Part shown: positions 17,771 to 54,879 of the stretch, one piece after another
Layout of the letters: each line of letters starts with the position of its first letter
Position numbering within the stretch: position 1 is the stretch's first letter
Source of the DNA: Antiquaquibacter soli
Lineage (GTDB): Bacteria; Actinomycetota; Actinomycetes; Actinomycetales; Microbacteriaceae
Direction of reading: 5' to 3'
DNA: 64,000 bases
Assembly: GCF_030580675.1 (NCBI RefSeq)
Contig: NZ_JAUQUB010000001.1
Coordinates: 1,178,001-1,242,000 of the forward strand
Position numbers and translations under genes: made by a program
The notes under the pieces: model-generated
Database searches by the model: none
What the model was told of the DNA's origin: nothing
What the model saw: the letters and a program-made list of their open reading frames with translations, nothing else

Positions 17771-18008
17771 AGAGCAGTTGCCCTGAAGCGAAGCCGAAAG
17801 GTGGAGCGGCAGGAGCGCCCGATCCTTGAGAACTCAACAGCGTGCACAATGTCAAATGCCAAAAACCCGTTGGCTGACTTCGGTCAGCTACGGATTCCTT
17901 TGGAAAAAGATATGAACAACAAAGCAAGTCAGTATTGATTTGTTCTGTCAGTTTCAAACTTGCCATTGTCTGTCCTCCTATTCCGGAGGCGACGGTGGTG
18001 CATAAACA

Positions 18009-23033
<5,025 letters not shown>

Positions 23034-40654: not shown

Positions 40655-40729
<75 letters not shown>

Positions 40730-40861: not shown

Positions 40862-42196
40862 CTAGACCCCCGACGCGACCGCCTTCTGCATGCCCTCGCC
40901 GAGTGCTCGCGCGGCTGCGCGAATGCCCGCCGACCCAGAGTGCGGTAGGTACGTCGTGAGGTGTACCTCGACGCTGTGACCCAGAAGCGCTGCCGCATCT
41001 GCGGGCGCGACTTCCAGCTGGTGGAGCCAGAAGGCGATGCTGTGCCTCACGTTGTGTAGCTTGATCACGGGCACGCCAGCGAGCGCGCACAGTCGCCTGA
41101 ATCGGTCGGAGTAGACCTGCGGCGCGAGCGGGTCGCCCAGCTCGTCCACGACCACGAGGCCGCAGTCGCGCCACGCTGCCCCAGCGGCCAGCCTGTCGGC
41201 AGCCTGTTGTGCCTTCATCCGCTTGAGTAGCGCCACAGTCCCAGGGTGGATGGCCTCGAAGGGAACTGACCGAACGCGCTGCGCACTCTTCGGGTCGTTC
41301 TCCTCCGTCGAGCCATCATCGAGCGCGACTCGCCCGACCGAGACAGACGCGATGCCGCCGTCGAGGTCAACGTCACCCCATCGGAGTCCCATGATGTCGG
41401 CGCGCGTCATGCCCGAGAGGGTGAGCCGCCATGCACCGGCCAGACGGTCCGCATCCGCGTGGTCGCGGAACTGCACCAACTCGACGGGCTGCCAGTGGCG
41501 CAGGTCCTGACCCCTGACGGTCCGAGCCTTGGGCCAGCGAGCGAGCTTCACGACGTTTCGCTGGATCGTCCCCTCGGCCACCGCGAGGTCGAGCGCCTGC
41601 TGGAGCGCGATCTTCACGGAGCGCATGGACGACGCGGACAGCGGCGTGCCGATCTCGCGCCCCTTCCGAGGTCGCATTCCCTCTCGCGCGAGCCATGCGA
41701 CGAACGACTGCACCTCAGCGACGCCCAACTCGGTCACCGGCGTCAGTGCGAGGTCGTGCCTGAACACCGGGGCGAGCCAGTTGCGGTAGCCCTCGCGAGT
41801 GACACGTCGAACATCGACTCGCGTCTCGATCCAGCGCTCGCAGAGGTGCCCGACCGTTTCTGACGCGGCCCGTGCAGCTGCCCCGTAGAGCCCGCTCGCG
41901 GCCACAGCAGACCGAACCTCCGCCACCCATGAACGCGCGCCGTCGAGAGTCGGGAACGATGCACTCCCCTGCTGGCGTGGCCGACCCGGGGTCGGGCGCG
42001 CGCTGTCCACGCGAGCGCGGTAGACGACCCGCCCCGGCTTGGTCTCGACTCGGCGGATGGGCTCGACGGCGGTCGGGCACTCTGGGCAGGTGTAGCCGAC
42101 AACGGCTTCGTCACGGGTGATCGGCACCCAGCCTGCGCGCTGGTTCGCCCGGGGCCTCGCGCAGGATCCGCATGACTTCGGGTTCGGCTGAGTCAC
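40862..42196 (-). CDS. Tyrosine recombinase (element integrase)
   Basis: A 444-residue phage-type integrase, responsible for insertion at tRNA-Pro. It has an unusual N-terminal zinc-ribbon-like segment (CGSCARPR then YTCPECP, residues about 9-40), an arm/core-binding region (about 100-215) and a C-terminal catalytic domain. Catalytic residues are seen as Arg in SGMTRADIMGL, LHNVRHSIAFWLH and GHSVEVHLTTY with the nucleophile Tyr. GTG 42196 overlaps the stop of the 91-residue gene upstream (GTGA). The gene lies next to attL and reads toward it, the usual arrangement. Confidence 0.93.
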   Translation of the reverse strand: MTQPNPKSCGSCARPRANQRAGWVPITRDEAVVGYTCPECPTAVEPIRRVETKPGRVVYRARVDSARPTPGRPRQQGSASFPTLDGARSWVAEVRSAVAASGLYGAAARAASETVGHLCERWIETRVDVRRVTREGYRNWLAPVFRHDLALTPVTELGVAEVQSFVAWLAREGMRPRKGREIGTPLSASSMRSVKIALQQALDLAVAEGTIQRNVVKLARWPKARTVRGQDLRHWQPVELVQFRDHADADRLAGAWRLTLSGMTRADIMGLRWGDVDLDGGIASVSVGRVALDDGSTEENDPKSAQRVRSVPFEAIHPGTVALLKRMKAQQAADRLAAGAAWRDCGLVVVDELGDPLAPQVYSDRFRRLCALAGVPVIKLHNVRHSIAFWLHQLEVAPADAAALLGHSVEVHLTTYLPHSGSAGIRAAARALGEGMQKAVASGV

Positions 42197-42497: not shown

Positions 42498-43064
42498 CTA
42501 CTTGTCGTCGGTGGTCTTCGCGCGATAGCCCTTGCCGGTCGCGGGGCTCGGAACCTCGGGGAAGTTCACTGGGCCGCCACTCCGCGCGGCTTCCTCTTCT
42601 GCCTCGCGTCGCTTCGCGCGTGCCCGCGCGATCCAGCCATCCACCGTTCGCTCCTTCGCGTCGAAGTAGATGGCTAGCTCTGCCCGACCCCAACCACGGC
42701 GTGTCATGAGCTCGGCCACTCGTTCGAGCGTCGGGGTCTTCCCAGCCCCGTCACCGTCGTCGGTGAGTAGCCCGCCCTCGGGGATGAACTGCAGGGCATC
42801 AGGGTCGTAGTCACGCACCCACGCTGCGACGACGGACTCGATTCGCTCGCGCGGGATGCTCCGAAGGCGGGCGAGGCGGGCGTCGTCGATGTAGCCGTCC
42901 ATCTCGATCTCCAGATGGTCGAGGTGCCCTTGCTCATTCACGGTCGCTCGGTAGGTGACCTGTCGGCGGCTGTCGTGAATCGCTGCCCCGATGACAGGAT
43001 CCCGATCCTCGTCGAAGTGGCGGGTCCAAGGGAACACCGACCAGCGAAGTCTCATGTCGTTCAT
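42498..43064 (-). CDS. Putative element regulator with C-terminal HTH-like segment
   Basis: A 188-residue protein. The N-terminal 100 residues look like a beta-rich domain (YRATVNEQGHLDHLEIEMDG); residues about 110-160 (LERVAELMTRRGWGRAELAI, then FDAKERTVDGWIARARAKR) read like a helix-turn-helix; the tail is charged. ATG 43064 is seven bases after a -10 box TACAGT (minus strand, 43077-43072), so translation is probably leaderless. The gene is divergent from the excisionase-like gene across an 82-base region holding a 24-bp palindrome at 43082-43105, the layout of a phage-like control switch. The family is not recognised; DNA binding is inferred. Confidence 0.6.
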   Translation of the reverse strand: MNDMRLRWSVFPWTRHFDEDRDPVIGAAIHDSRRQVTYRATVNEQGHLDHLEIEMDGYIDDARLARLRSIPRERIESVVAAWVRDYDPDALQFIPEGGLLTDDGDGAGKTPTLERVAELMTRRGWGRAELAIYFDAKERTVDGWIARARAKRREAEEEAARSGGPVNFPEVPSPATGKGYRAKTTDDK

Positions 43065-43081
43065 GTGCGTAACTGTAGACA

Positions 43082-43105
43082 CTTGTTGCGTTGCAATGCA
43101 ACAAG
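43082..43105. promoter_or_regulatory. 24-bp palindromic operator candidate
   Basis: Outer arms CTTGTTGC (43082-43089) and GCAACAAG (43098-43105) are perfectly complementary and enclose a second palindrome TTGCAA (43091-43096). It overlaps the expected -35 region of the leaderless minus-strand gene and lies upstream of the plus-strand genes, so a bound repressor could control both directions. Confidence 0.7.
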
Positions 43106-43146
43106 GCAGCCTCAACAGCAACAGAACGCGAGAAAGGCAGGCAAGC

Positions 43147-43380
43147 GTGGCAAGCATCCAAGACGACCGCTTCTACCCAGTCACGGAGGTCGCCGACCTC
43201 ATCGGTGTCAACTACCGCACGGTGCTGAACGAGATCCACGGTCAGCGACTCCACGCCGTTGCAGTTGGGCCCAAGCCGATCTACCGCGTCCCGGGCTGGG
43301 CGCTGCGCGACTACCAAGCGGGCCGTGCTCCACGACCCGCGGCGCTCGTGGCCAGCATCGGCGGCGCAGGAAACAACTGA
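43147..43380 (+). CDS. Excisionase-like helix-turn-helix protein
   Basis: A 77-residue protein with a MerR/excisionase-type winged helix: YPVTEVADLIGVNYRTVLNE followed by the wing IYRVPGWALRDYQAG. Such proteins bend DNA for excision or act as DNA-binding helpers in replication. GTG 43147 has GAAAGG ten bases upstream; an ATG at 43096 would add 17 residues but begins inside the operator palindrome. It heads the rightward operon of the element. Confidence 0.72.
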   Translation: MASIQDDRFYPVTEVADLIGVNYRTVLNEIHGQRLHAVAVGPKPIYRVPGWALRDYQAGRAPRPAALVASIGGAGNN

Positions 43381-43446: not shown

Positions 43447-43776
43447 ATGACCACAGGATACGCCGAGAGGTACGACGAGATGCTGGCTCAGGCCTACGGG
43501 CCATTCACTCCCGGCTCGCTAGCTCGCGCAGTGCGAGCCGACAACGCCTCGCGCGGGCTGCGCACCTGCTGGTTCTGTCTCGCGGCCTTCGCGCCCCGAC
43601 GAGTCATTGACAGTGACGGGAGGCTACGCCGACTGGGACGGGGGCGCTTCTTCTGCTCGACCCGGTGCGCGGTGTACGAGCGCCGCAGGGCTGTCCGGGA
43701 ACGCCCCATCATCACGGCCAACCCTGACGGCTCGTTCACTCTCGACCTCCGCCGATGTTGGGACTGTGCCGCATGA
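43447..43776 (+). CDS. Small zinc-finger-like protein of the element
   Basis: A 109-residue basic protein with three Cys pairs: CWFC (around residue 40), CSTRC (around residue 72) and CWDC at the end. The first two pairs could bind one zinc ion in an HNH- or FCS-like arrangement. GAGG precedes ATG 43447. The end overlaps the ATPase gene by four bases. Function is unknown; phages of actinobacteria often carry such short Cys-rich proteins before replication genes. Confidence 0.65.
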   Translation: MTTGYAERYDEMLAQAYGPFTPGSLARAVRADNASRGLRTCWFCLAAFAPRRVIDSDGRLRRLGRGRFFCSTRCAVYERRRAVRERPIITANPDGSFTLDLRRCWDCAA

Positions 43777-45080
43777 GCGATGAGGACGAGGTGATGACGA
43801 TCGACCTCACCAAGTACACGGAGCCAACCGACCTCGACGCCGCATGGGCGCTCGTGCTCGCAGACGCGCGCGAAGAAGCGGAAGTTGAGGACGCCGAGCC
43901 CTTGCAGGTGGCCAGCGATCCTGACCTCGGAACCCTGAGCGCGAGTGCTCGCGAAAGCTGGGCGGCAGAGGACGGCATCGGTCGCGCCGAGGCTCGCCGC
44001 CGACTGGGTTTAGTGGACGAGTGGGAGAGGCAACACGAGCCGCAAGGCCGACACGCCGACGCCCAGCGCTCGGGGTGGGGCGACGTGCCCCTCGACGGCC
44101 TGCTCGACGCGCTCGCCGCAGGCACCCTTCAGCTCCCGACCCCGACGGTAGGGATGCTCGCCGATGCCTCGTCAGGACTCTTCTACCCGGGCCGGGTGAA
44201 CGGGCTAGCGGGGGAGTCAGGGGCGGGCAAGGGCTGGATCGCGCTCACCGTCGGCATCGAGCAGATGACCGCGGGCCGACACTTCTTCTACCTCGACTTC
44301 GAGGACAGCCCTGCACTCGCCCTGCTGCGGCTCGTGCACGTGCTCGGAGCCGAACCCGACCTCCTGCGCTCCCGGTTCCACTACCTCCACCCTGCGCGGC
44401 ACGACGACGAGGGCATCGCCGATCTGGTGAGCCGGGTCGCCGACGAGCGCAGCGCGTTCGTCGTGATCGACTCCACCGGCGAGAGCATCGCGTCAGCAGG
44501 TCTCAACCAGAATCACGACGAAGAAGTCGCCCGCTGGTTCCAGTCGCTCGCGCACCCACTCGCCGACCACGGGGGCGCGACGGTGCTCCTGCTCGACCAC
44601 ATGGTCAAGAGCGACGACGGGGGGCTCTGGCCGATCGGCTCCCAGCGCAAGCGCGCCGCGATCACCGGGGCTCAGTATGTGGCCGAGATCGCCCAGCCAT
44701 TCAGCCGCACGGCCAACGGCATGGTCACCCTCCGCGTGGCCAAGGACCGCCACGGGGCGCGTGAGGCTCGCAGCGTCGCTAGCTATGTCCAGTTCCAGCA
44801 CCCGCAGACGGTTTCGACGTCGGCGGACGGGACGATCGACATCTCCCTGGGGGAGCAGCTGTCGGTGGTGTTCGGCCCGGGCAAGTCGTCGGATCAGATC
44901 AAGGCCGACCGCGACGCGAAGGCCGCCGCCGCCATTGACCTCGACGTGGCCGACCTCGACCGGCTCACCCCGCCCCCGAAATCGCAGCGCGACGTGCAGG
45001 CCCGCATGAGCTGGGGAGCGAAGCGCTCGATGGAAGCGCTGCAGGAGTGGCGGGCGCGGCAGCAGGGGAGCGCATCATGA
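43773..45080 (+). CDS. RepA-like AAA/RecA-fold ATPase
   Basis: A 435-residue protein. The N-terminal 120 residues are acidic and variable. Residues about 125-330 form a RecA-fold ATPase of the RepA/AAA_25 type: Walker A GESGAGKG (147-154), FYLDFEDSP, Walker B-like FVVIDSTGESIA and VLLLDHMVKSDD, as in plasmid RSF1010 RepA-like helicases. The residue after the Walker A lysine is Gly rather than the usual Ser/Thr. The C-terminus is Arg/Ala rich. It is directly followed by a phased array of 7-bp repeats, which suggests a replication role as a helicase or helicase loader. Confidence 0.75.
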   Translation: MSDEDEVMTIDLTKYTEPTDLDAAWALVLADAREEAEVEDAEPLQVASDPDLGTLSASARESWAAEDGIGRAEARRRLGLVDEWERQHEPQGRHADAQRSGWGDVPLDGLLDALAAGTLQLPTPTVGMLADASSGLFYPGRVNGLAGESGAGKGWIALTVGIEQMTAGRHFFYLDFEDSPALALLRLVHVLGAEPDLLRSRFHYLHPARHDDEGIADLVSRVADERSAFVVIDSTGESIASAGLNQNHDEEVARWFQSLAHPLADHGGATVLLLDHMVKSDDGGLWPIGSQRKRAAITGAQYVAEIAQPFSRTANGMVTLRVAKDRHGAREARSVASYVQFQHPQTVSTSADGTIDISLGEQLSVVFGPGKSSDQIKADRDAKAAAAIDLDVADLDRLTPPPKSQRDVQARMSWGAKRSMEALQEWRARQQGSAS

Positions 45081-45915: not shown

Positions 45916-46278
45916 ATGACCGACCACACACGCACGATCACCCGCGACTCTGACGACTGGCCGCAGGGCGCGCCCCGGTGGGCGACCTGCGCCGACCTCG
46001 AGGCGGGCGGCGGGCTGCGCTTCACTCGCGGCTGGACGATCCCCAGCATGCACCGCGGCGCGGAGCCGCTGATCGTGGTGTGCGTCGAGCAGGAGTGGAC
46101 GCCCAGCGCTGGCGGCTACGTGGCCGAGGCTCCGCGGGTCGCAGCTGGGGCCGGTGCCCTGTGGGCGGACTGGCGCGCGGTCGATGTGGCGGCAGCGCTG
46201 CGCGAGATCGCAGACGCGCTCGACCCGAACGCCGAGGGCGCGACCCTGCCCGCGATGGAGGAAGGCGAAGACGGATGA
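45916..46278 (+). CDS. Element protein of unknown function
   Basis: A 120-residue acidic protein (MTDHTRTITRDSDDWP at the start). The middle contains a beta-rich stretch EPLIVVCVEQEW and the C-terminus a helix VAAALREIADALD. GAAAGG precedes ATG 45916. The end overlaps the terminase-small-like gene by four bases. Similar short proteins occur in actinophage genomes, but I cannot assign a role. Confidence 0.65.
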   Translation: MTDHTRTITRDSDDWPQGAPRWATCADLEAGGGLRFTRGWTIPSMHRGAEPLIVVCVEQEWTPSAGGYVAEAPRVAAGAGALWADWRAVDVAAALREIADALDPNAEGATLPAMEEGEDG

Positions 46279-46859
46279 GCGCGGACGCAACCGCCGAAGC
46301 ACCCGACATCGCGCCGCACACCGGCCCACAGGGTCGCACGCCCCAGAGTGCGCCCGAGACGACGTGGGAGCCGGAGTTCGATGGGCAGCGCCCGCCCTTC
46401 GAACCCGGCAACAGTGCGGCGGTCAAGAGCGGGGCGCACTCTCAGCGCAAGGTCGAGGAGATCGCGAGGAAGGTCAGCGACGAACTGCTCGAACGCTTCC
46501 CCGTGGTTGCCGAATACCCCGAGACGCTGACTGCGCTGGCGCGGGTCGAGGGCATCACCCGGCTGCTCTTCTCGGACATCGTGACCAACGGTGCCTACGA
46601 CAAGAAGGGGCAGTTCCGCACCTCGCTGCTGGAACGGTACTTCACCGCGGAGAACACCGGAGCCAAGCTGCGCTCGTCGCTGGGGATGACCCCGCAGAGC
46701 GAGGCGCAAGTCGCCCGCGACCGTGCGGTGGCGGCGTCGAACACGGTGGACGTGCTGGGGGAGCTGATGAAGCAGGGGCGGGCGACCAAGGCCCAGAGTG
46801 CACCCCTCCCCGCCGACCGCGTAGTGCTCGACAGCGAGCCGAACGCTCCCGGTTCCTAG
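46275..46859 (+). CDS. Terminase small subunit-like protein
   Basis: A 194-residue protein. The stretch PPFEPGNSAAVKSGAHSQRK (around residues 40-59) resembles the N-terminal motif of actinophage terminase small subunits, and the helical region that follows (VVAEYPETLTALARVEGITR, then AENTGAKLRSSLGMTPQSEA) fits that family. Such proteins recognise phage DNA at the packaging start. ATG 46275 overlaps the preceding gene. The terminase large-subunit-like gene lies 1.7 kb downstream in the same direction, supporting the call; it remains an inference from motif and context. Confidence 0.62.
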   Translation: MSADATAEAPDIAPHTGPQGRTPQSAPETTWEPEFDGQRPPFEPGNSAAVKSGAHSQRKVEEIARKVSDELLERFPVVAEYPETLTALARVEGITRLLFSDIVTNGAYDKKGQFRTSLLERYFTAENTGAKLRSSLGMTPQSEAQVARDRAVAASNTVDVLGELMKQGRATKAQSAPLPADRVVLDSEPNAPGS

Positions 46860-47532: not shown

Positions 47533-48536
47533 CCGACGCCCTCACCCCCGCCGCGACTGCTGGCGCGCCTCGTAAGCGCCGACCCGCGCCGGTCACCGTC
47601 GCCGCAACCGTATGCCGGGTCTGCGGCAAGATCGTCAAGCGTCCCGACCCCTCGCGGGCCGAGACCGTGCTCGTGTACGGTCCCGAGTTCCGCTCCGCGC
47701 AGGCACGCGGCGTCCCCGCCTCGCCCGCGGAGGTCGCAGCTACGAGGTGCGACGAGTGCGCCGACCGGCGCAGGCTCGCAGCGTCCCTGTTGGCGCAGCA
47801 CCCGAGAGTGCAGCGCGCGCACGGCAGTGTCGCGCTCGACCGGCTCGACGCCGCGCTCGCGGCCCTCGACGTGGGCGGAGTGCTTCGTCGTGGTCGCCTC
47901 GTCAACGACCTCACCGCGACCGACGACGACCTCGCAGAGCTGATCCTCCGAATGGCAGCGCTCGGTGCCTTGGCGTCGTGGTCCTCGCGCGGTCAACTGG
48001 AGGGCGCGACGAAGCGGTGGGCGCATGTTCGCGCAGACCTCCTCGCAGATGTTCGCGCCGAGCAGACGCGGCTCGTGCGCAGACTCGTTGAGTTCCCTTT
48101 CCCCTTCACTCCCCCTGGGGCCGACGCGGGGGAGTGCGCAGGGTGCATGTTCTGCGGCGTCGGCACCCTGATGGTGAGGGAGAGCGAAGCGCTCGCGGCG
48201 TGGGGTGAGCAGCGCCGCGTCGATCCGAGCGTGCTCGGGGGCCGACACCGCCCGCAGCCAATCGCCGGACACCTCTGCCCTCCCTGCCGCCGCGCAGTCG
48301 AGCAGGTCGGAGCAATGGGCATCCCGGCGGTGCAGCGGGCGCTGCTCCGTCACTTCGGCTACACCGTGACGTTGGGCCGCGCACTCGACTTCCACGGCAG
48401 CCTCCGCGCATGGGTCGCGCTCAAGTCGGGGACACCCGCGAACCGCACTCCGTGGGCCCACATGGGGCCGAGCATGAAGGAGCAGCTGCTCGACCTAGAG
48501 CGGCGGGGGTTCATCGTCAAGGTGGCCCGGGCGTGA
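47529..48536 (+). CDS. Multi-CxxC zinc-binding element protein
   Basis: A 335-residue protein with four Cys clusters: VCRVCGK (about residue 28), RCDECADRR (about 73), ECAGCMFCG (about 200) and HLCPPC (about 250). The first and second pairs, and the third and fourth, are spaced like two separate zinc ribbons joined by a helical middle region. ATG 47529 and GTG 48533 of the next gene are both in four-base overlaps. Its place between the two terminase-like genes suggests a packaging or DNA-processing role, but I do not recognise the family. Confidence 0.65.
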   Translation: MTDALTPAATAGAPRKRRPAPVTVAATVCRVCGKIVKRPDPSRAETVLVYGPEFRSAQARGVPASPAEVAATRCDECADRRRLAASLLAQHPRVQRAHGSVALDRLDAALAALDVGGVLRRGRLVNDLTATDDDLAELILRMAALGALASWSSRGQLEGATKRWAHVRADLLADVRAEQTRLVRRLVEFPFPFTPPGADAGECAGCMFCGVGTLMVRESEALAAWGEQRRVDPSVLGGRHRPQPIAGHLCPPCRRAVEQVGAMGIPAVQRALLRHFGYTVTLGRALDFHGSLRAWVALKSGTPANRTPWAHMGPSMKEQLLDLERRGFIVKVARA

Positions 48537-49996
48537 ACGCACGACCACCCCTCGACCCGTCGGCGCTGCTCGCGGGGCTGGTGCTCGATGACCAGGGGAC
48601 GCGGTGGGGCGACATCGCGGAGCAGTTCCAACGAGACGACGCCTCAGCGATCCTCGCCGGTGTCGCGCCCGAGGACAGGCGGCTGCACTTCCTCACGCGC
48701 CCGCGCGGTGGCAGCAAGACCACCGACCTCGCCGCTGTGCTGCTCGTCGTGCTGCTCACCCAAGCGCCGCGTCGGTCAACCAGTCACGCCTACGCCCGCG
48801 ATCAGGACCAAGCAGGCCTGCTTCTCGACGCGCTACGTGCGCTCGCCGAGCGGTCCGGTCTCGCATTGCTGCTCGATATTGGGGTCGCGACTGTGACCGT
48901 GAAGGCGAGCGGCGCGAGGCTGCGCGTCGAGTCGGCAGACGCGGGGAGCGCATTTGGCCGCATCCCGTACTTCGTCGTCGTGGACGAGGTGGCGCAGTGG
49001 CCCACTACCCGGCAAGCTCGGACGCTCTGGGAAGCGCTCACCTCGGGACTGCCGAAGCGAAGGGACTCACGCCTCGTGGTGCTGACCACGGCAGGCGACC
49101 CGGCGCACTGGGCTGGTCGTGTGATCGGCGGCGCGCGTCAGTCCGACCGGTGGCGTGTCTCGGAGGTGCCCGGACCGCTCCCGTGGGCGGACCCTCACGA
49201 CCTCGCGGAGCAACGACGGCTGCTGCCCGAGTCTGCCTTCGCTCGGTTGCACCTCAACCGCTGGACTGCTGCCGAGGACAGGCTCGTGAGTCTCGACGAC
49301 CTTCGCGCGTGCGTCACCCTCGACGGGCCACTCGACCACGACCCTGCGCACCGGTACGTGATCGGGCTTGACCTCGGACTTAAGAACGACAGGACGGTCC
49401 TCTCTATTGCGCACTCCGAGCGCCGCGACGGCGGAGCCCCACGAGTGGTGCTCGACCGGATCGCGGTGCTGCAGGGCACCAAGAATCGCCCGGTGCAGCT
49501 GGACGACGTGGAGCGGCTGACGCTCGAAGCGAGCCGGTCGTATGGTCACGCTCGCGTCAGGCTAGACCCGTGGCAGGCCGTCGGCCTCGCACAACGGCTC
49601 CGAGAGCGAGGGGTGACGGTGGAGGAGTGGACGTTCTCCGCTCAGTCCGTCGGCAGGCTGGGCCAGACACTCCACCTGCTGCTGCGCGACCACAGGCTCG
49701 CGCTGCCCGACGACCAAGAACTTCTCGACGAGCTGATGACGGTGCGTCTCCGCGAGTCAGCCCCGGGCGTCTACCGACTCGACCACGACGCAGGTCAGCA
49801 TGACGACCGCGCCGTCAGTCTCGGGCTGGCAGCGCTCGCGCTGACCGAGCGCACGGTGTCTGACCTCGGCGGGTTCAGCGACATCAACGCGGTCGCCGCG
49901 TCGATGGGCATCCTGAACATCAGGGCCCATCGACAGGACGTGCAAACGCCGTACTCATCTAGGATTCCGCGGCAACAACAATTGGGGCGCAGATAG
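48533..49996 (+). CDS. Terminase large subunit-like ATPase/nuclease
   Basis: A 487-residue protein with the two-domain layout of phage packaging motors. The ATPase half shows a Walker A-like RPRGGSKTTD with K62 and Walker B VVVDEVAQW with D151-E152. The RNase H-fold nuclease half shows the first acidic residue D280 in VIGLDLGLKND and the late acidic pair D424-D425 in GQHDDRAVS. It lacks any nearby portal or capsid gene. It may package element DNA into helper-phage capsids, or be a remnant. The 93 bases after it contain no gene. Confidence 0.75.
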   Translation: MNARPPLDPSALLAGLVLDDQGTRWGDIAEQFQRDDASAILAGVAPEDRRLHFLTRPRGGSKTTDLAAVLLVVLLTQAPRRSTSHAYARDQDQAGLLLDALRALAERSGLALLLDIGVATVTVKASGARLRVESADAGSAFGRIPYFVVVDEVAQWPTTRQARTLWEALTSGLPKRRDSRLVVLTTAGDPAHWAGRVIGGARQSDRWRVSEVPGPLPWADPHDLAEQRRLLPESAFARLHLNRWTAAEDRLVSLDDLRACVTLDGPLDHDPAHRYVIGLDLGLKNDRTVLSIAHSERRDGGAPRVVLDRIAVLQGTKNRPVQLDDVERLTLEASRSYGHARVRLDPWQAVGLAQRLRERGVTVEEWTFSAQSVGRLGQTLHLLLRDHRLALPDDQELLDELMTVRLRESAPGVYRLDHDAGQHDDRAVSLGLAALALTERTVSDLGGFSDINAVAASMGILNIRAHRQDVQTPYSSRIPRQQQLGRR

Positions 49997-50089
49997 CGCG
50001 TTCGTTGATGATGCCCCGCGCGGGGCGCGCCCCGAGCCCGAGTGTCTCCTGACCTGAGTAGTGTTCGCTTCGAAGGAAGGAGCCCCACA

Positions 50090-51079
50090 ATGCCTACAGA
50101 AGTGCCCGGCATTTCCCGAACCTCCGGCGCAGTGAGTTTGAGCTACTACGAGGAAACTGGAATCGGACCTGCCTTGATCGAGGGCGGACTCTTTCGGGAG
50201 ATCCTTGTTTGGGCTCTATCGGATGCCGACGCGCTTGTACCTCCCGGCGTGGTTTGGCGAATCCACTTCACGGGGGACATGGTAACGAGCGTCGCTGAAC
50301 TGAACGGGACTAGCGAAGGTGAGACCTACACTCTCGACCGGGGCGCGAACGTGGTTGCGGGCAAGACGATCAAGCAACCCGACGGGTCCTTTGACGTCGT
50401 TGTTTCATTCGACGTCTGGAATGTCGCAGTTAGCGAAGACATAGACCACTCCGTTCAAGAAATGGCGTTGACTCTGCGGCACACGCTGATGCACGAGGCC
50501 GGCCATGTTGCCATCGACGCAAGGGGAGAGGACGCGCTCGACTTGATCGATGACGTCGACGGCCTTGACCGAGCCTCCGTCGAGTGGGCAAGACACCTCG
50601 GATTCATGCTTGAGGACTACCGAATTGAGCTCGCGCTTCACTCGTTGGCTCCAAACCAGATCCCGCGAGTCTCGATGATCAGCGAGGATCTTGCTCTATT
50701 CGACGCCGAACGGTCGAGGTCGCAACGTGTAGGAGCCGAAGGCCGGTTCGTTGAGGGGCGGGAGGTCATGCTCAAGGCCATGGTCGACCTAACTCGCGTT
50801 CTCGCCTACCTTGCAGCAGAGTGCGTTGACCCCGTACCGACGCTGGTGGGGGCCGATCTAGAGCGGTGGAATCGATTCGTCGCCCCGACTTGGGAATCTT
50901 GGGTGGCAGCTTACGGGGCGGCGTTACCTGCCACCCAACCGATGGCTCGGACTGAGATCATCGAGATCATTCGAACACTTTCTCGACTCGCCCCGGCGAT
51001 GCTCAGCTCAGTTGGCTTCGAAAGAACCTTTGAGGGCGACAACGAGGCAGTTTGGTGGCTGCGGTCCTTCGAATGGTAG
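50090..51079 (+). CDS. Putative HExxH metallopeptidase-like protein (cargo gene 1)
   Basis: A 329-residue protein. The zinc-peptidase motif HEAGH is at residues 135-139 within ALTLRHTLMHEAGHVAID; an acidic cluster FMLEDYRIE at 173-180 could provide the third zinc ligand. The N-terminal 110 residues look beta-rich, the C-terminal 140 helical. AAGGAAGGAG lies seven bases before ATG 50090. Codons are clearly less GC-rich than in the rest of the window (many GAA, GAT, AGT, ATT), suggesting separate acquisition. It is 37 bases upstream of the nuclease-like gene, so the two probably form an operon. I recognise no family; a protease that cuts a host, phage or partner protein is inferred only from the motif. 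Confidence 0.68.
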   Translation: MPTEVPGISRTSGAVSLSYYEETGIGPALIEGGLFREILVWALSDADALVPPGVVWRIHFTGDMVTSVAELNGTSEGETYTLDRGANVVAGKTIKQPDGSFDVVVSFDVWNVAVSEDIDHSVQEMALTLRHTLMHEAGHVAIDARGEDALDLIDDVDGLDRASVEWARHLGFMLEDYRIELALHSLAPNQIPRVSMISEDLALFDAERSRSQRVGAEGRFVEGREVMLKAMVDLTRVLAYLAAECVDPVPTLVGADLERWNRFVAPTWESWVAAYGAALPATQPMARTEIIEIIRTLSRLAPAMLSSVGFERTFEGDNEAVWWLRSFEW

Positions 51080-51116
51080 GCACAGTGGAGCTTGACGCTG
51101 AGGGCAGGGGAGACGA

Positions 51117-53480
51117 ATGACGTCACTCGAGGTTAGTTTTGCTTCCGCGAGGCTGGTGCTACGCCCTCCTCGGGTAGTGATCATGTTTGCAGACGATGAC
51201 CACTGGCGAGACTGGGCGATGTTGGCGCTTGCGACAGCGTCCGACTATTGGGGTGGTGGCGGCTTCATTCTCGTTCCCTACGATCGTGCAAGTGGAGAGC
51301 CCTCGCCCCACTTCCGCGAAGTAGTGCGTTCCTATGACCCGGATCACATCGTCACGCTTGAAGTCGGGGCGACACAGATGGATGAGTGGTATCCGGGATA
51401 CATCCAGATTTCGGGAGTCAAGGACGAGGCCGAACATGCCCGCCTTGTTCGAACAATCCACGGCGGGGTGGATGACGCCAACGGACTTCGCGCGAGAAGC
51501 CTTGTCGCTTCTTGGTGCTCACCATTTCGGTCCATTCGCTTGACCCGCGATGCGGATACCCGGCAGCGCGAGACAATCACCAAGCTTGGGCGCGCGGACC
51601 GATCGGACCGGTACCGTCGCGGGCTAACTGTCGCGCCCCTGCCTTCATCGACATCCAGAGTCGCCGCGTCTGCAAGCTGGCGCTCGGACGTCGGGCTCGC
51701 AGCTGCCGCGAAGGTGGGTGTTGCCGACTCCGAATCGACTGAACGCGGCGAGCCAGAACTCGACAGCATCGGCTGGATGACCAAGCCCTTTGGGGAACCA
51801 CCTGTCTCGCTCCTGTGGACCACGGCGGAGCCGAGCCAGACAACTGATGAGCCTGATTGGTGGTTCCGCGCCAACCAGGGGCTTATCCAAGTCTCACGGT
51901 CCTTTACTCGCGACAAGGGATCGGTAGTAGTCGGCGACACAGGTACTGACTTCGCGCTGGCGCTCGCGTATGACCGGATTCTCGGGCGGGGTGTTTGGCT
52001 GCCCTCCGCCGTCCTCGGTAGCGCAGACATCATGAGGCGCCAGGTTCGACCCGCAGTGCAATCACTGATTGCGGATCTACAGCAAGACGCTTCCAGCTTG
52101 GTTGTGTGCTCAACTTCAGTACCCGCACGGAAAGTTGCTCGGATATCCGAATCGCTTCAGAAGCACGAGTACGGCTTCGAGACTGAAGTCGATAGAGAAA
52201 CCGTCCAGTTGCGATTCGCCGACACCGGTCGAAGCCCGTTGTTCTACGTGGTTGATGATCACGTCGGTGCATCCGTCTTTCTGCCGATGGCCCAAGACGA
52301 AGATGGGACGCTGAACGCACTCACCGGGCTGGAAACGCCGATACCAAGCGAGCTGATGTATAGCGTTGGCTCAGGAAAGGTCCCATATTGGTACGTCGAG
52401 GTCGGCATGTCGGGCGATCATGCCCCGCGGGCGCGGGACATTCCGGCGAGTCGACTCACAATCGAAAGCGGAACTTTTCCCGAGGTCCAGCTACGCGCGA
52501 GCGCTGACGGCGTAACCTTCGATCCGTCCTCGATGGGCTTTGTCCCCGGGGGATCATTGCTTCCGGGACGCATCGGCCGCCCACGCCTTCGGTCTCTATC
52601 GTTGCGCGCTTGGGTCGAGGGGATGGCGGCTGCCGAGGGACTCGGGGTGAGGCTCTCCACGCCGGGTCGACAGGCTGAGCTTGTCAGAAGGCGCATAGGT
52701 TCACGACGTGATCTCTTGGACCTTGTGGCGGGCCCCAGCCTGTCGATGCTGAGAGCGTTCATCCCCTACGAGAGGCGGCCCGACTCGCGTGATCCGGACA
52801 CCGTCGTACTCGGACTCGATCCATATCTTTCGTTTGGTGGTATCAAGAACCTGCTATTGGATTCGGAAGAGAGAACGATCGAGGTCATCGACGTACTCAC
52901 CTCTGCGCGACTGCTTCGGCGTGGATTGATCCTGAACTGCTCCGAGTGCGGTCGTCCCTCGTTCCTCGACGCTGACAGGCTGGGCCAGCAGTACGAGTGT
53001 CCACAGTGCGCCACCATGAACACCTTGACCTCTGACCGTTGGCGACTAGGGAGCGAACCGCGTTGGTTCTTCGATCTCTATGCAACCTTCCGTGAGCTGC
53101 TTGCCTCTCACGGTGATGTGCCGATTCTCGCCTCAGCAGCACTCAGCCAAAGAGCTCGCGGATACTTGGATACTCCCGAGCTTGAGTTCTTTGAGCTGGA
53201 TGGTGGCAAGACCGTTGCGGAGATTGACGTCATCTCAAGCGTCAACGGTGAGGTGATCGTGGTTGAGGCGAAGTCTTCGAACGAGTTTTCCCGAGGCAAG
53301 CGGGTTGACCAAGTGAAGAAGCTGCTCCGTATCGCAGAAGTGCTCCGAGCAGATCGAATAGTGCTTGCGACGCTTCAAGATTCTTGGAAACCCGGAGATG
53401 TAGAGCACCTCGCCAAGGAAGCAGCGAAGTCCGCTCCCTTCCCCTTGCACACCGAAGTTCTAGCCGCGCTCGGGCGTTGA
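51117..53480 (+). CDS. Large protein with zinc ribbon and PD-(D/E)XK nuclease motif (cargo gene 2)
   Basis: A 787-residue protein. The N-terminus (about 1-140) contains VVIMFADDDHWRDWAMLALA, a GGGGFILVPYD turn and RSYDPDHIVTLEV, an alpha/beta-like domain I do not recognise. The middle 450 residues are also unassigned. A zinc ribbon has Cys608, 611, 628 and 631 (NCSECG, ECPQC). The C-terminal domain has a restriction-endonuclease-like core: E702, D704 and then E717-A-K719 in EIDVISSVNG and VIVVEAKSS, followed by a helical end. GGGGAGACGA precedes ATG 51117. Codon use is AT-richer like its partner. It is the last gene before attR, a common place for defence cargo. Confidence 0.72.
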   Translation: MTSLEVSFASARLVLRPPRVVIMFADDDHWRDWAMLALATASDYWGGGGFILVPYDRASGEPSPHFREVVRSYDPDHIVTLEVGATQMDEWYPGYIQISGVKDEAEHARLVRTIHGGVDDANGLRARSLVASWCSPFRSIRLTRDADTRQRETITKLGRADRSDRYRRGLTVAPLPSSTSRVAASASWRSDVGLAAAAKVGVADSESTERGEPELDSIGWMTKPFGEPPVSLLWTTAEPSQTTDEPDWWFRANQGLIQVSRSFTRDKGSVVVGDTGTDFALALAYDRILGRGVWLPSAVLGSADIMRRQVRPAVQSLIADLQQDASSLVVCSTSVPARKVARISESLQKHEYGFETEVDRETVQLRFADTGRSPLFYVVDDHVGASVFLPMAQDEDGTLNALTGLETPIPSELMYSVGSGKVPYWYVEVGMSGDHAPRARDIPASRLTIESGTFPEVQLRASADGVTFDPSSMGFVPGGSLLPGRIGRPRLRSLSLRAWVEGMAAAEGLGVRLSTPGRQAELVRRRIGSRRDLLDLVAGPSLSMLRAFIPYERRPDSRDPDTVVLGLDPYLSFGGIKNLLLDSEERTIEVIDVLTSARLLRRGLILNCSECGRPSFLDADRLGQQYECPQCATMNTLTSDRWRLGSEPRWFFDLYATFRELLASHGDVPILASAALSQRARGYLDTPELEFFELDGGKTVAEIDVISSVNGEVIVVEAKSSNEFSRGKRVDQVKKLLRIAEVLRADRIVLATLQDSWKPGDVEHLAKEAAKSAPFPLHTEVLAALGR

Positions 53481-53629
53481 GTGCGATTCGACAAGAGTCG
53501 ATGTAGGCGGTGCAACACCTCCGACCCATGCACCGTTGTTGCACAGCCTGCGCGGCACCACATTCCCAAGTGCCGCAAGAGACGGCACGATAGCTCACAA
53601 AACAACCGGAAACCGCGAGGCTAGACGTC
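53481..53629. other. Non-coding right end of the element with integrase arm-site candidates
   Basis: No gene is visible. GTTGCACA occurs at 53538-53545 and its core inverted at 53511-53516; the same octamer is present twice near attL at 40825-40832 and 40837-40844. These are plausible arm-type binding sites for the integrase. Confidence 0.5.
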
Positions 53630-53673
53630 ACTGGGGGTCAAGGGGTCGCAGGTTCAAATCCTGTCAGCCCGAC
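53630..53673 (+). repeat. attR: 44-bp direct repeat, right copy
   Basis: Identical to 40686-40729. It contains only the 3' half of tRNA-Pro and so cannot encode a tRNA; it marks the right border of the element. Confidence 0.95.
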
Positions 53674-53678
53674 TCAAC

Positions 53679-53712
53679 GAGAAACGGACCGCCCTCCGGC
53701 GGTCCGTTTCTC
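53679..53712 (+). terminator. Terminator, probably the original tRNA-Pro terminator
   Basis: Perfect 15-base arms GAGAAACGGACCGCC (53679-53693) and GGCGGTCCGTTTCTC (53698-53712) with a CTCC loop, five bases after attR. Before the insertion it would have lain directly behind the tRNA gene. The 147 bases from here to the next gene hold nothing else I can name. Confidence 0.9.
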
Positions 53713-53859
53713 GTTCCTGGCGTAGTGACAGCGGGGTCGCCATCGCGCCGGTTCCGGCGCATCGCCCTCACCGATAGCCGCCACCTCCCCGTGACCGCGA
53801 TGTGACGGCCGTGCCGATGGGGCGCAGCCCGACCCGCAGCCCGACCCAGTACCCGACGA

Positions 53860-54879
53860 TCAACCACCGAGTGCGGGCAGCACGTCCCGCACGATGCTGC
53901 CGAGCATCCGTGCGTTCAGGTCCACGCCGAGCTTGTTCGGCACCGTGACGAGGAGGGTGTCGGCGGCGGCGACCGCGGCATCCTGAGCGAGCTCCTCGGC
54001 GATCCGGTCGGGCTCGCCGATGTAGCTGCGGCCGAAGCGGGAGAGGGCCCCGTCGAGCACGCCCACTTGGTCGCTGCTGTCGGCCTGAGCGCGCAGCCCG
54101 AAGTAGTACCGCGTCTCGTCGTCGATGATCGGCAGGATGCTGCGGCTCACCGACACGCGCGGCTCGTGCTGCCATCCCGCCGCCGCCCACGCACTGCGGT
54201 ACCTCTCGATCTGCTCCGCTTGGAGCTCGTCGAAGGGAACGCCGGTGTCCTCGGTGAGCAGTGTCGAGCTCATGAGGTTCATTCCCTCGGTGCCCGTCCA
54301 CTCGGCGGTCGCGCGGGTGCCGGAGCCCCACCAGATGCGCTCCGCGAGCCCGGGCGACTGCGGTTGGATCGCGAGCCCGCCGGACACCCCGGTCATGCGG
54401 GGGTCGGATCGGGCGATGGATGCCCCGGCGATCGCCTCCCGGAACTCGGCGGTGTGGCGGCGCGCCATGTCCGCGTCATCCTGTCCCTCGGCGGGGACGA
54501 AGCCGAAGGACTCGTAGCCGGCCAGCGCCGTCTCGGGCGAGCCCCGGCTCAGTCCCAGCTGCAGGCGGCCGTCGCTGATGAGGTCTGTCGCGGCGGCGTT
54601 CTCCGCCATCGCGAGGGGGTTCTCGTACCGCATGTCGATGACGGCGGTGCCCATCTCGATGGTCGATGTTCGGGCCGCGATCGCGGCGAGAAGCGGGAAC
54701 GGCGACGCGAGCTGCCGGGCGAAGTGGTGCACGCGCAGGAACGCGCCGTGGGCACCGAGCTCTTCGGCGGCGACGGCGAGCTCGACGGTCTGCTGGAGCG
54801 CGTCCCGGGCGTCGCGTACGAGCGACCCCGGCACAGCCTGGTAGTGCCCGAACGTGAGGAACCCGATCCGTTTCGCCAT
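53860..54879 (-). CDS. LLM-class flavin-dependent oxidoreductase
   Basis: A 339-residue luciferase-like monooxygenase of the group 1 type. Typical stretches are RIGFLTFGHYQAVPGS at the N-terminus, ELGAHGAFLRVHHFARQLASPFP, EMGTAVIDMRYENPL and DGRLQLGLSRGSPE. It should use reduced FMN or F420 to oxidise an unknown small molecule. ATG 54879 fits the usual N-terminus; the longer ORF upstream is non-coding in style. It is divergent from the DUF4397 gene. Confidence 0.88.
   Translation of the reverse strand: MAKRIGFLTFGHYQAVPGSLVRDARDALQQTVELAVAAEELGAHGAFLRVHHFARQLASPFPLLAAIAARTSTIEMGTAVIDMRYENPLAMAENAAATDLISDGRLQLGLSRGSPETALAGYESFGFVPAEGQDDADMARRHTAEFREAIAGASIARSDPRMTGVSGGLAIQPQSPGLAERIWWGSGTRATAEWTGTEGMNLMSSTLLTEDTGVPFDELQAEQIERYRSAWAAAGWQHEPRVSVSRSILPIIDDETRYYFGLRAQADSSDQVGVLDGALSRFGRSYIGEPDRIAEELAQDAAVAAADTLLVTVPNKLGVDLNARMLGSIVRDVLPALGG

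Follow-up and report, generated by a model that had tools for sequence, protein, structure and literature searches.

A predicted sensor-nuclease family, probably defensive, represented beside attR of a satellite-like element in Antiquaquibacter soli

Results and discussion

A 787-residue protein encoded at the end of a satellite-like insertion in Antiquaquibacter soli represents, on sequence comparison, a new, undescribed family of predicted sensor-nucleases. The reading we favour, held at about even confidence, is that it is a self-contained, one-gene sensor-nuclease effector limiting phages or mobile DNA, and that the HExxH protein encoded just ahead of it is independent cargo. We infer nuclease activity, sensing and a defence function from domain models, conserved residues and gene neighbourhoods, and on these grounds the single gene is probably defensive. 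All positions refer to the window, the whole 64-kb stretch of DNA analysed here.

Element and insertion site

A 49-bp repeat with 96% identical copies bounds a 12.9-kb insertion, and the window contains two copies of its 42-base core, against 0 expected from shuffling. The attL-like copy (40681..40729, + strand) forms the 3' end of a tRNA-Pro(ggg) gene (40655-40729), and the attR-like copy lies at 53625..53673 (+). Between them are encoded a tyrosine integrase (40862..42196, -; Pfam Phage_integrase E 2.2e-10), a possible excisionase or HTH protein (42991..43380, +) with a weak match to PHROG 66, excisionase and transcriptional regulator (E 0.006), a replication-type AAA ATPase (43755..45080, +; Pfam AAA_25 E 8.9e-9, PHROG 695 DNA polymerase/primase E 4.9e-7) and a terminase large subunit (48533..49996, +, in an ORF open from 48410; PHROG 9 E 3.1e-35), whose match to Pfam TerL_ATPase (E 1.8e-4) is slightly below the model cut-off. 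The ORF at 46275-46859, before the large terminase, we take from a motif to be small-terminase-like; a PHROG scan of part of it gave no match. No virion structural genes were recognised among the element ORFs searched. With integrase, AAA ATPase and TerL between att repeats at tRNA-Pro, the element may, by gene content, be a phage satellite. When tblastn was run with the terminase large subunit at 1e-5, 50,697 phage records yielded no match, and a search of 19 other relatives was also empty, so the satellite type looks uncommon. Satellites that carry capsid and packaging genes are described from Streptomyces in passages of one report (PMC10690885). Elsewhere in the window, a second low-GC block at 18000-23000 (54-57% per kilobase versus ~68%) with positive GC skew is possibly another island.

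The final genes of the insertion, ahead of attR, encode a 329-aa predicted zinc metallopeptidase (50090..51079, +; ATG at 50090), with HEAGH at residues 135-139 and a glutamate at E180, and the 787-aa predicted sensor-nuclease (51117..53480, +; ATG at 51117, stop ending at 53480), separated by a spacer of 37 bases (51080-51116) on the same strand. Purine-rich, ribosome-binding-like stretches were read directly ahead of both starts, and a scan for consensus promoters across 49700-53900 found none, with 0.8 expected by chance. GC content is ~60-62% per kilobase across 50-54 kb compared with 68-70% in the adjoining kilobases on both sides, and third-position GC is 0.67 and 0.64 in the 329-aa and 787-aa genes, respectively, whereas five other genes of the element range over 0.81-0.87 and two flanking genes have 0.87 and 0.92. 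A preliminary description of this DNA had reported the two proteins with their motifs and spacing, their less GC-rich codons and the adjoining attR of a satellite-like element; coordinates and motifs were as described, the codon difference was reproduced, and the repeat pair, integrase and terminase bear out the setting.

Domain structure of the 787-aa protein

AlphaFold2 models were obtained for the whole protein (pLDDT 87, pTM 0.86) and for residues 1-402 alone (pLDDT 84, pTM 0.87). We read the N-terminal half (residues 1-402; 51117..52322, +) as Rossmann-like alpha/beta from the strand-helix order of the model, in which a three-strand start and a long helical insertion are followed by strands with GDxxxDFALA, WLP and S-x-S loops (G273-D274-x3-D278-F-A-L-A, W294, S332, S334); G273, D278, A280 and W294 are invariant in the 30 aligned members. 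A duplication within this half, considered for the similar residue rhythm of 8-140 and 250-352, was rejected as not significant by profile comparison (probability 1.2%, E 0.045). Beyond it the model continues with a beta-rich middle, a winged-helix-like segment placed by secondary structure and carrying a four-Cys zinc ribbon (~547-636; 52755..53024, +; C608, C611, C628, C631), and a nuclease core. Sub-threshold fold matches include winged-helix (MarR-type) regulators.

The C-terminal region (~667-786; 53115..53474, +) is a predicted PD-(D/E)XK nuclease domain with E702-x-D704 and E717-x-K719. D704 and E717-x-K719 fall within or between the strands modelled at 699-703, 705-709 and 712-719, with a helix following at 729-742, so that in the model an acidic residue is followed by E-x-K on adjacent core strands, as expected of this fold; E702, before D704, completes an E-x-D pair. 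Because the four cysteines, together with E702, D704, E717, K719 and K735, show no variation in 30/30 aligned members, which share 24-58% identity with the window protein, the nuclease motif is not a chance occurrence, and the zinc ribbon and D704...E717-x-K719 motif of the preliminary description are confirmed. Labels of Hjc resolvase for this protein (E 0.053 over residues 700-757) and of UPF0102 for its family were sub-threshold only and were set aside.

Relatives and distribution of the 787-aa family

Neither window protein had a match at useful thresholds in Pfam, NCBIfam, PADLOC, PHROGs or PDB sequences, in agreement with the earlier remark that nothing recognisable was matched, and at E <= 1 neither matched any family in PADLOC 2.0. 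Among the best matches of a literature search, judged from abstract openings and passages, no paper could be connected with the 787-aa family. Relatives were found on three plasmids by tblastn, at 30 loci by a pattern scan of species genomes and on one viral contig, which together make up our set of 34 loci other than the window. Judged by record title and plasmid taxonomy, 33/34 are actinobacterial, the exception being the viral contig; they include Microbacterium, Arthrobacter, Rhodococcus, Nocardia, Streptomyces and Kitasatospora, a range that reflects actinobacterial seeds and two short patterns and may extend further. The phage records gave no tblastn match and the viral contigs a single one, which weighs against the effector reading. 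The family is rare and patchy, being present in 4/299 sampled genomes of the host's taxonomic family and 5/396 of the phylum (own genome counted in both). Since relatives also occur on plasmids and near transposases, the gene is not tied to satellites.

Counting the window protein with those of the 34 loci, 30 of 35 sequences were aligned. L005-L007 were omitted on account of their sequence source, and L027 and L028 on account of apparently interrupted frames; L038 and L040 entered with a shortened N terminus. Further matches (G177, G379, G428, G550 and G600) were counted in the samples and stand outside the alignment and neighbour analysis. By our gene calls, the apparently interrupted relatives occupy ~9992-12363 in L027 and 9977-12319 in L028.

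Fold comparison with CARF nucleases

A search of the PDB with the whole model gave 14 matches at E <= 1e-3, all of them VC1899, Can2 or Card1 (best E 1.2e-6), followed by the cA3-bound nuclease Cdn1 (E 5e-3). The best match had a probability of 1.00 but TM-scores of 0.18/0.32 and an rmsd of 16.8, from a tool that reports no aligned ranges, and full-length comparison with the CARF nucleases gave low TM-scores (0.15-0.18, normalised by query length). At the same level a viral structure library yielded two matches, an uncharacterised Bacillus phage protein and one nameless entry. The fold search with residues 1-402 gave no PDB match, its best E being 0.25 and a CARF ring nuclease standing at rank 21 (E 0.83), and for this reason we infer that the Card1-like resemblance lies mainly in the winged-helix and nuclease half of the model. 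A profile comparison of the N-terminal half with CARF nucleases was likewise not significant (E 0.63), and a CARF identity for this half was rejected on these two results.

The family profile compared with a Can2/DUF1887 profile (four Can2-type proteins, two of them checked against PDB sequences) was not significant either (E 0.31), and it is at this non-significant level that the E-x-D of the latter aligns in register with E702-x-D704. PF09002 (DUF1887 / Card1_endonuc) had no match at E <= 1 in the window protein, did not figure in the set of 10 families that the 30 members hit at E <= 0.1, and had no match in the own genome. Card1/DUF1887 membership, seen as a fold match only, was not adopted in view of the negative PF09002 and profile tests.

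It is reasonable, given the model, to suppose that the 787-aa protein works in the manner of a Card1-type sensor-nuclease. Card1, Can2 and VC1899 are its sole whole-model PDB fold matches at E <= 1e-3, and they share a sensor-like domain first and a nuclease last; E702/D704 can be set beside the E-x-D pair E276/D278 given for SthCan2 in passages of PMC7969007. In contrast, these proteins have ~370-440 residues rather than 787 and lack the added beta-rich middle and zinc ribbon, their CARF domain is unmatched by the N-terminal half, and E717-x-K719 is retained in the 787-aa protein where the four Can2-type proteins show S-C-x at the aligned place. Type III CRISPR genes were absent from the matches listed for neighbours of the 787-aa genes, each list holding at most 25 models; one farther gene matches Cas3 models. 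The same passages present VC1899 as an orphan CARF protein unlinked to type III CRISPR, a weak RNase that is not cA4-regulated (PMC7969007), and a passage of a further study notes CARF genes away from CRISPR-Cas (PMC4012209).

The 329-aa protein

Three confident relatives of the 329-aa protein were found, one on a Gordonia plasmid (E 4e-12) and two in host-family genomes (2e-20 and 1e-13), and six further host-family genomes gave weak matches only, at seven places. The HExxH motif and downstream E180 are invariant in 4/4 aligned members, from which the protein is predicted to be a zinc metallopeptidase with E180 as candidate third ligand. HExxH with a conserved downstream Glu gives the protein a likeness to ImmA/IrrE-type peptidases. 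Membership of that family (Peptidase_M78, PF06114) was rejected, since the model has two matches in the own genome, both away from this gene. None of the four members had a Pfam match above cut-off; a methyltransferase label, below cut-off in one of the four (E 0.028), was discarded. No viral relatives were found in two viral scans or in the phage records. At L054 (7993-10694) a peptidase relative and an unassigned 567-aa gene overlap; tblastn found no match to the latter in the window or at the remaining peptidase loci.

A pair or a single gene

The preliminary description had proposed the peptidase and nuclease as one two-gene system, in which the HExxH peptidase activates the nuclease or is guarded by it. 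The 37-base spacing on one strand, the similarly unusual third-position GC and the ribosome-binding-like stretches ahead of both starts fit such a pair, but outside the window its homologues were not found together in any of the loci or genomes searched, a pattern that the preliminary description had named as telling against it. At the 34 other nuclease loci (0/34 with a peptidase relative), tblastn with the 329-aa protein found nothing better than E 0.30, and a 4-sequence profile searched against 4,266 ORFs around the 34 nuclease genes nothing better than E 6.6. The reverse search with the 787-aa protein at 11 loci with strong or weak peptidase matches was equally empty (0/11; nothing at E <= 0.1), these loci representing eight places, as three pairs cover the same place, with L050 and L051 (weak matches) left out; the three confident peptidase relatives have no 787-aa partner. 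Across the 299 sampled host-family genomes, the same in both searches, the two genes occur together in the own genome only. We therefore rejected the pair as a general system and consider a two-gene mechanism very unlikely. It could be a real local partnership, and the similar third-position GC points at most to a shared recent origin.

Gene order around the nuclease, from our own codon-based gene calls, agrees with a gene that acts alone. The upstream gene is divergent at 16 of the 34 loci and lies on the same strand with a gap below 100 bases at two, where the genes are unlike each other (a 245-aa gene of unknown kind at L013 and, by our reading, a transposase-like gene at L034); at L028 the 'upstream gene' belongs to the interrupted frame of the nuclease itself. 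The commonest neighbour families reach only three loci each. From these calls the 787-aa gene looks like a usually stand-alone gene, with no fixed partner in the analysed loci, and we read the 329-aa peptidase gene as a separate, independent cargo.

Defence genes near the nuclease

A strong match to known defence genes lies within two genes of the nuclease at 7/34 loci: an Avs2-like gene (L012, E 8.8e-180), a type I restriction enzyme (L024, E 9.4e-168), PDC-S73 with a TIR-type stretch (L021, E 2e-136), a type I methylase (L006, E 2.3e-126) and CBASS-endonuclease-type N-terminal stretches of ~70-130 residues at L015, L019 and L026 (best E 4e-25, 1.2e-24 and 7.8e-27). When 20 hand-picked neighbours were scanned singly against PADLOC at 1e-8, eight (from 8 loci) matched and 12 did not; seven of the eight are strong or domain-level defence matches and one (L030) is weaker, to restriction-type models. 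In bulk, 184 PADLOC models were matched by 131 near genes, 78 by 86 farther genes and 86 by 131 random genes, counts that refer to models rather than genes, one helicase being able to match many. Of 133 genes listed as near, 131 were used, two being excluded for lying inside interrupted nuclease frames; of 118 farther genes, 86 remained once 31 that reach a locus end and one shared with the near set had been removed; the random set comprises 131 of 183 genes from 13 regions of our choosing. Because the models are redundant and random genes also hold strong matches (DpdE 1.4e-219, ZorD 1.2e-100, methylases), the enrichment near the 787-aa genes is only suggestive, a lean rather than a test. Of the proposal of an undescribed defence cargo, the nuclease as cargo, with defence matches near it, was upheld, and the two-gene system was not.

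The CBASS-endonuclease-type neighbours differ greatly in length (L015 13134-16553, L019 8852-9655, L026 7236-9587). Very large genes (~1,650-1,800 aa) of one family lie near the nuclease in L006 (11891-17293), L039 (13189-18288) and L011 (15620-20599).

Proposed mechanism and alternatives

In the single-gene reading, the Rossmann-like N-terminal half and beta-rich middle would sense a trigger, which may be a small ligand or a nucleic-acid or phage feature; the winged-helix/zinc-ribbon module would contact nucleic acid or relay the signal; and the C-terminal PD-(D/E)XK domain would cut DNA or RNA, so limiting incoming phages or competing mobile DNA. The effector would act as a single gene, with the HExxH protein ahead of it a second, independent cargo.

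An alternative is a CARF-type effector, whose N-terminal half would switch the nuclease on upon binding a cyclic oligonucleotide from another system, as in Card1/Can2. That 14/14 significant whole-model matches are DUF1887/CARF nucleases, and that the conserved residues fall in loops after strands of the Rossmann-like domain, argues for it; the N-terminal half alone nevertheless found no PDB match, the CARF profile comparisons were not significant, and the T-G-G-T-K stretch of the compared CARF proteins is absent on direct reading. The own genome also has no SMODS or Csm1_B match, and therefore a cyclic nucleotide from these two cyclase sources, the two searched, is not evident. We judge this alternative unlikely, and similarly doubtful is a restriction-type or satellite-helper interference nuclease that would recognise modified DNA or a helper-phage sequence, cut it and favour the satellite. 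Its cargo position beside attR in a terminase-bearing element, and a zinc ribbon and winged-helix-like segment suited to DNA contact, are what such a nuclease might show, but members on plasmids and near transposases speak against it.

More tentatively, and with somewhat less confidence than the effector role itself, the family may form a class of its own among single-protein immune effectors, found in Actinomycetota and combining a previously unseen Rossmann-type sensor, a winged-helix/zinc-ribbon module and a Card1-like nuclease outside CRISPR and CBASS. If so, a single gene thinly spread in actinobacteria would join the self-sufficient antiviral nucleases together with its ligand-sensing domain, and a Card1/Can2-like nuclease architecture would be tied to a trigger distinct from the cyclic oligoadenylate that CRISPR systems make.
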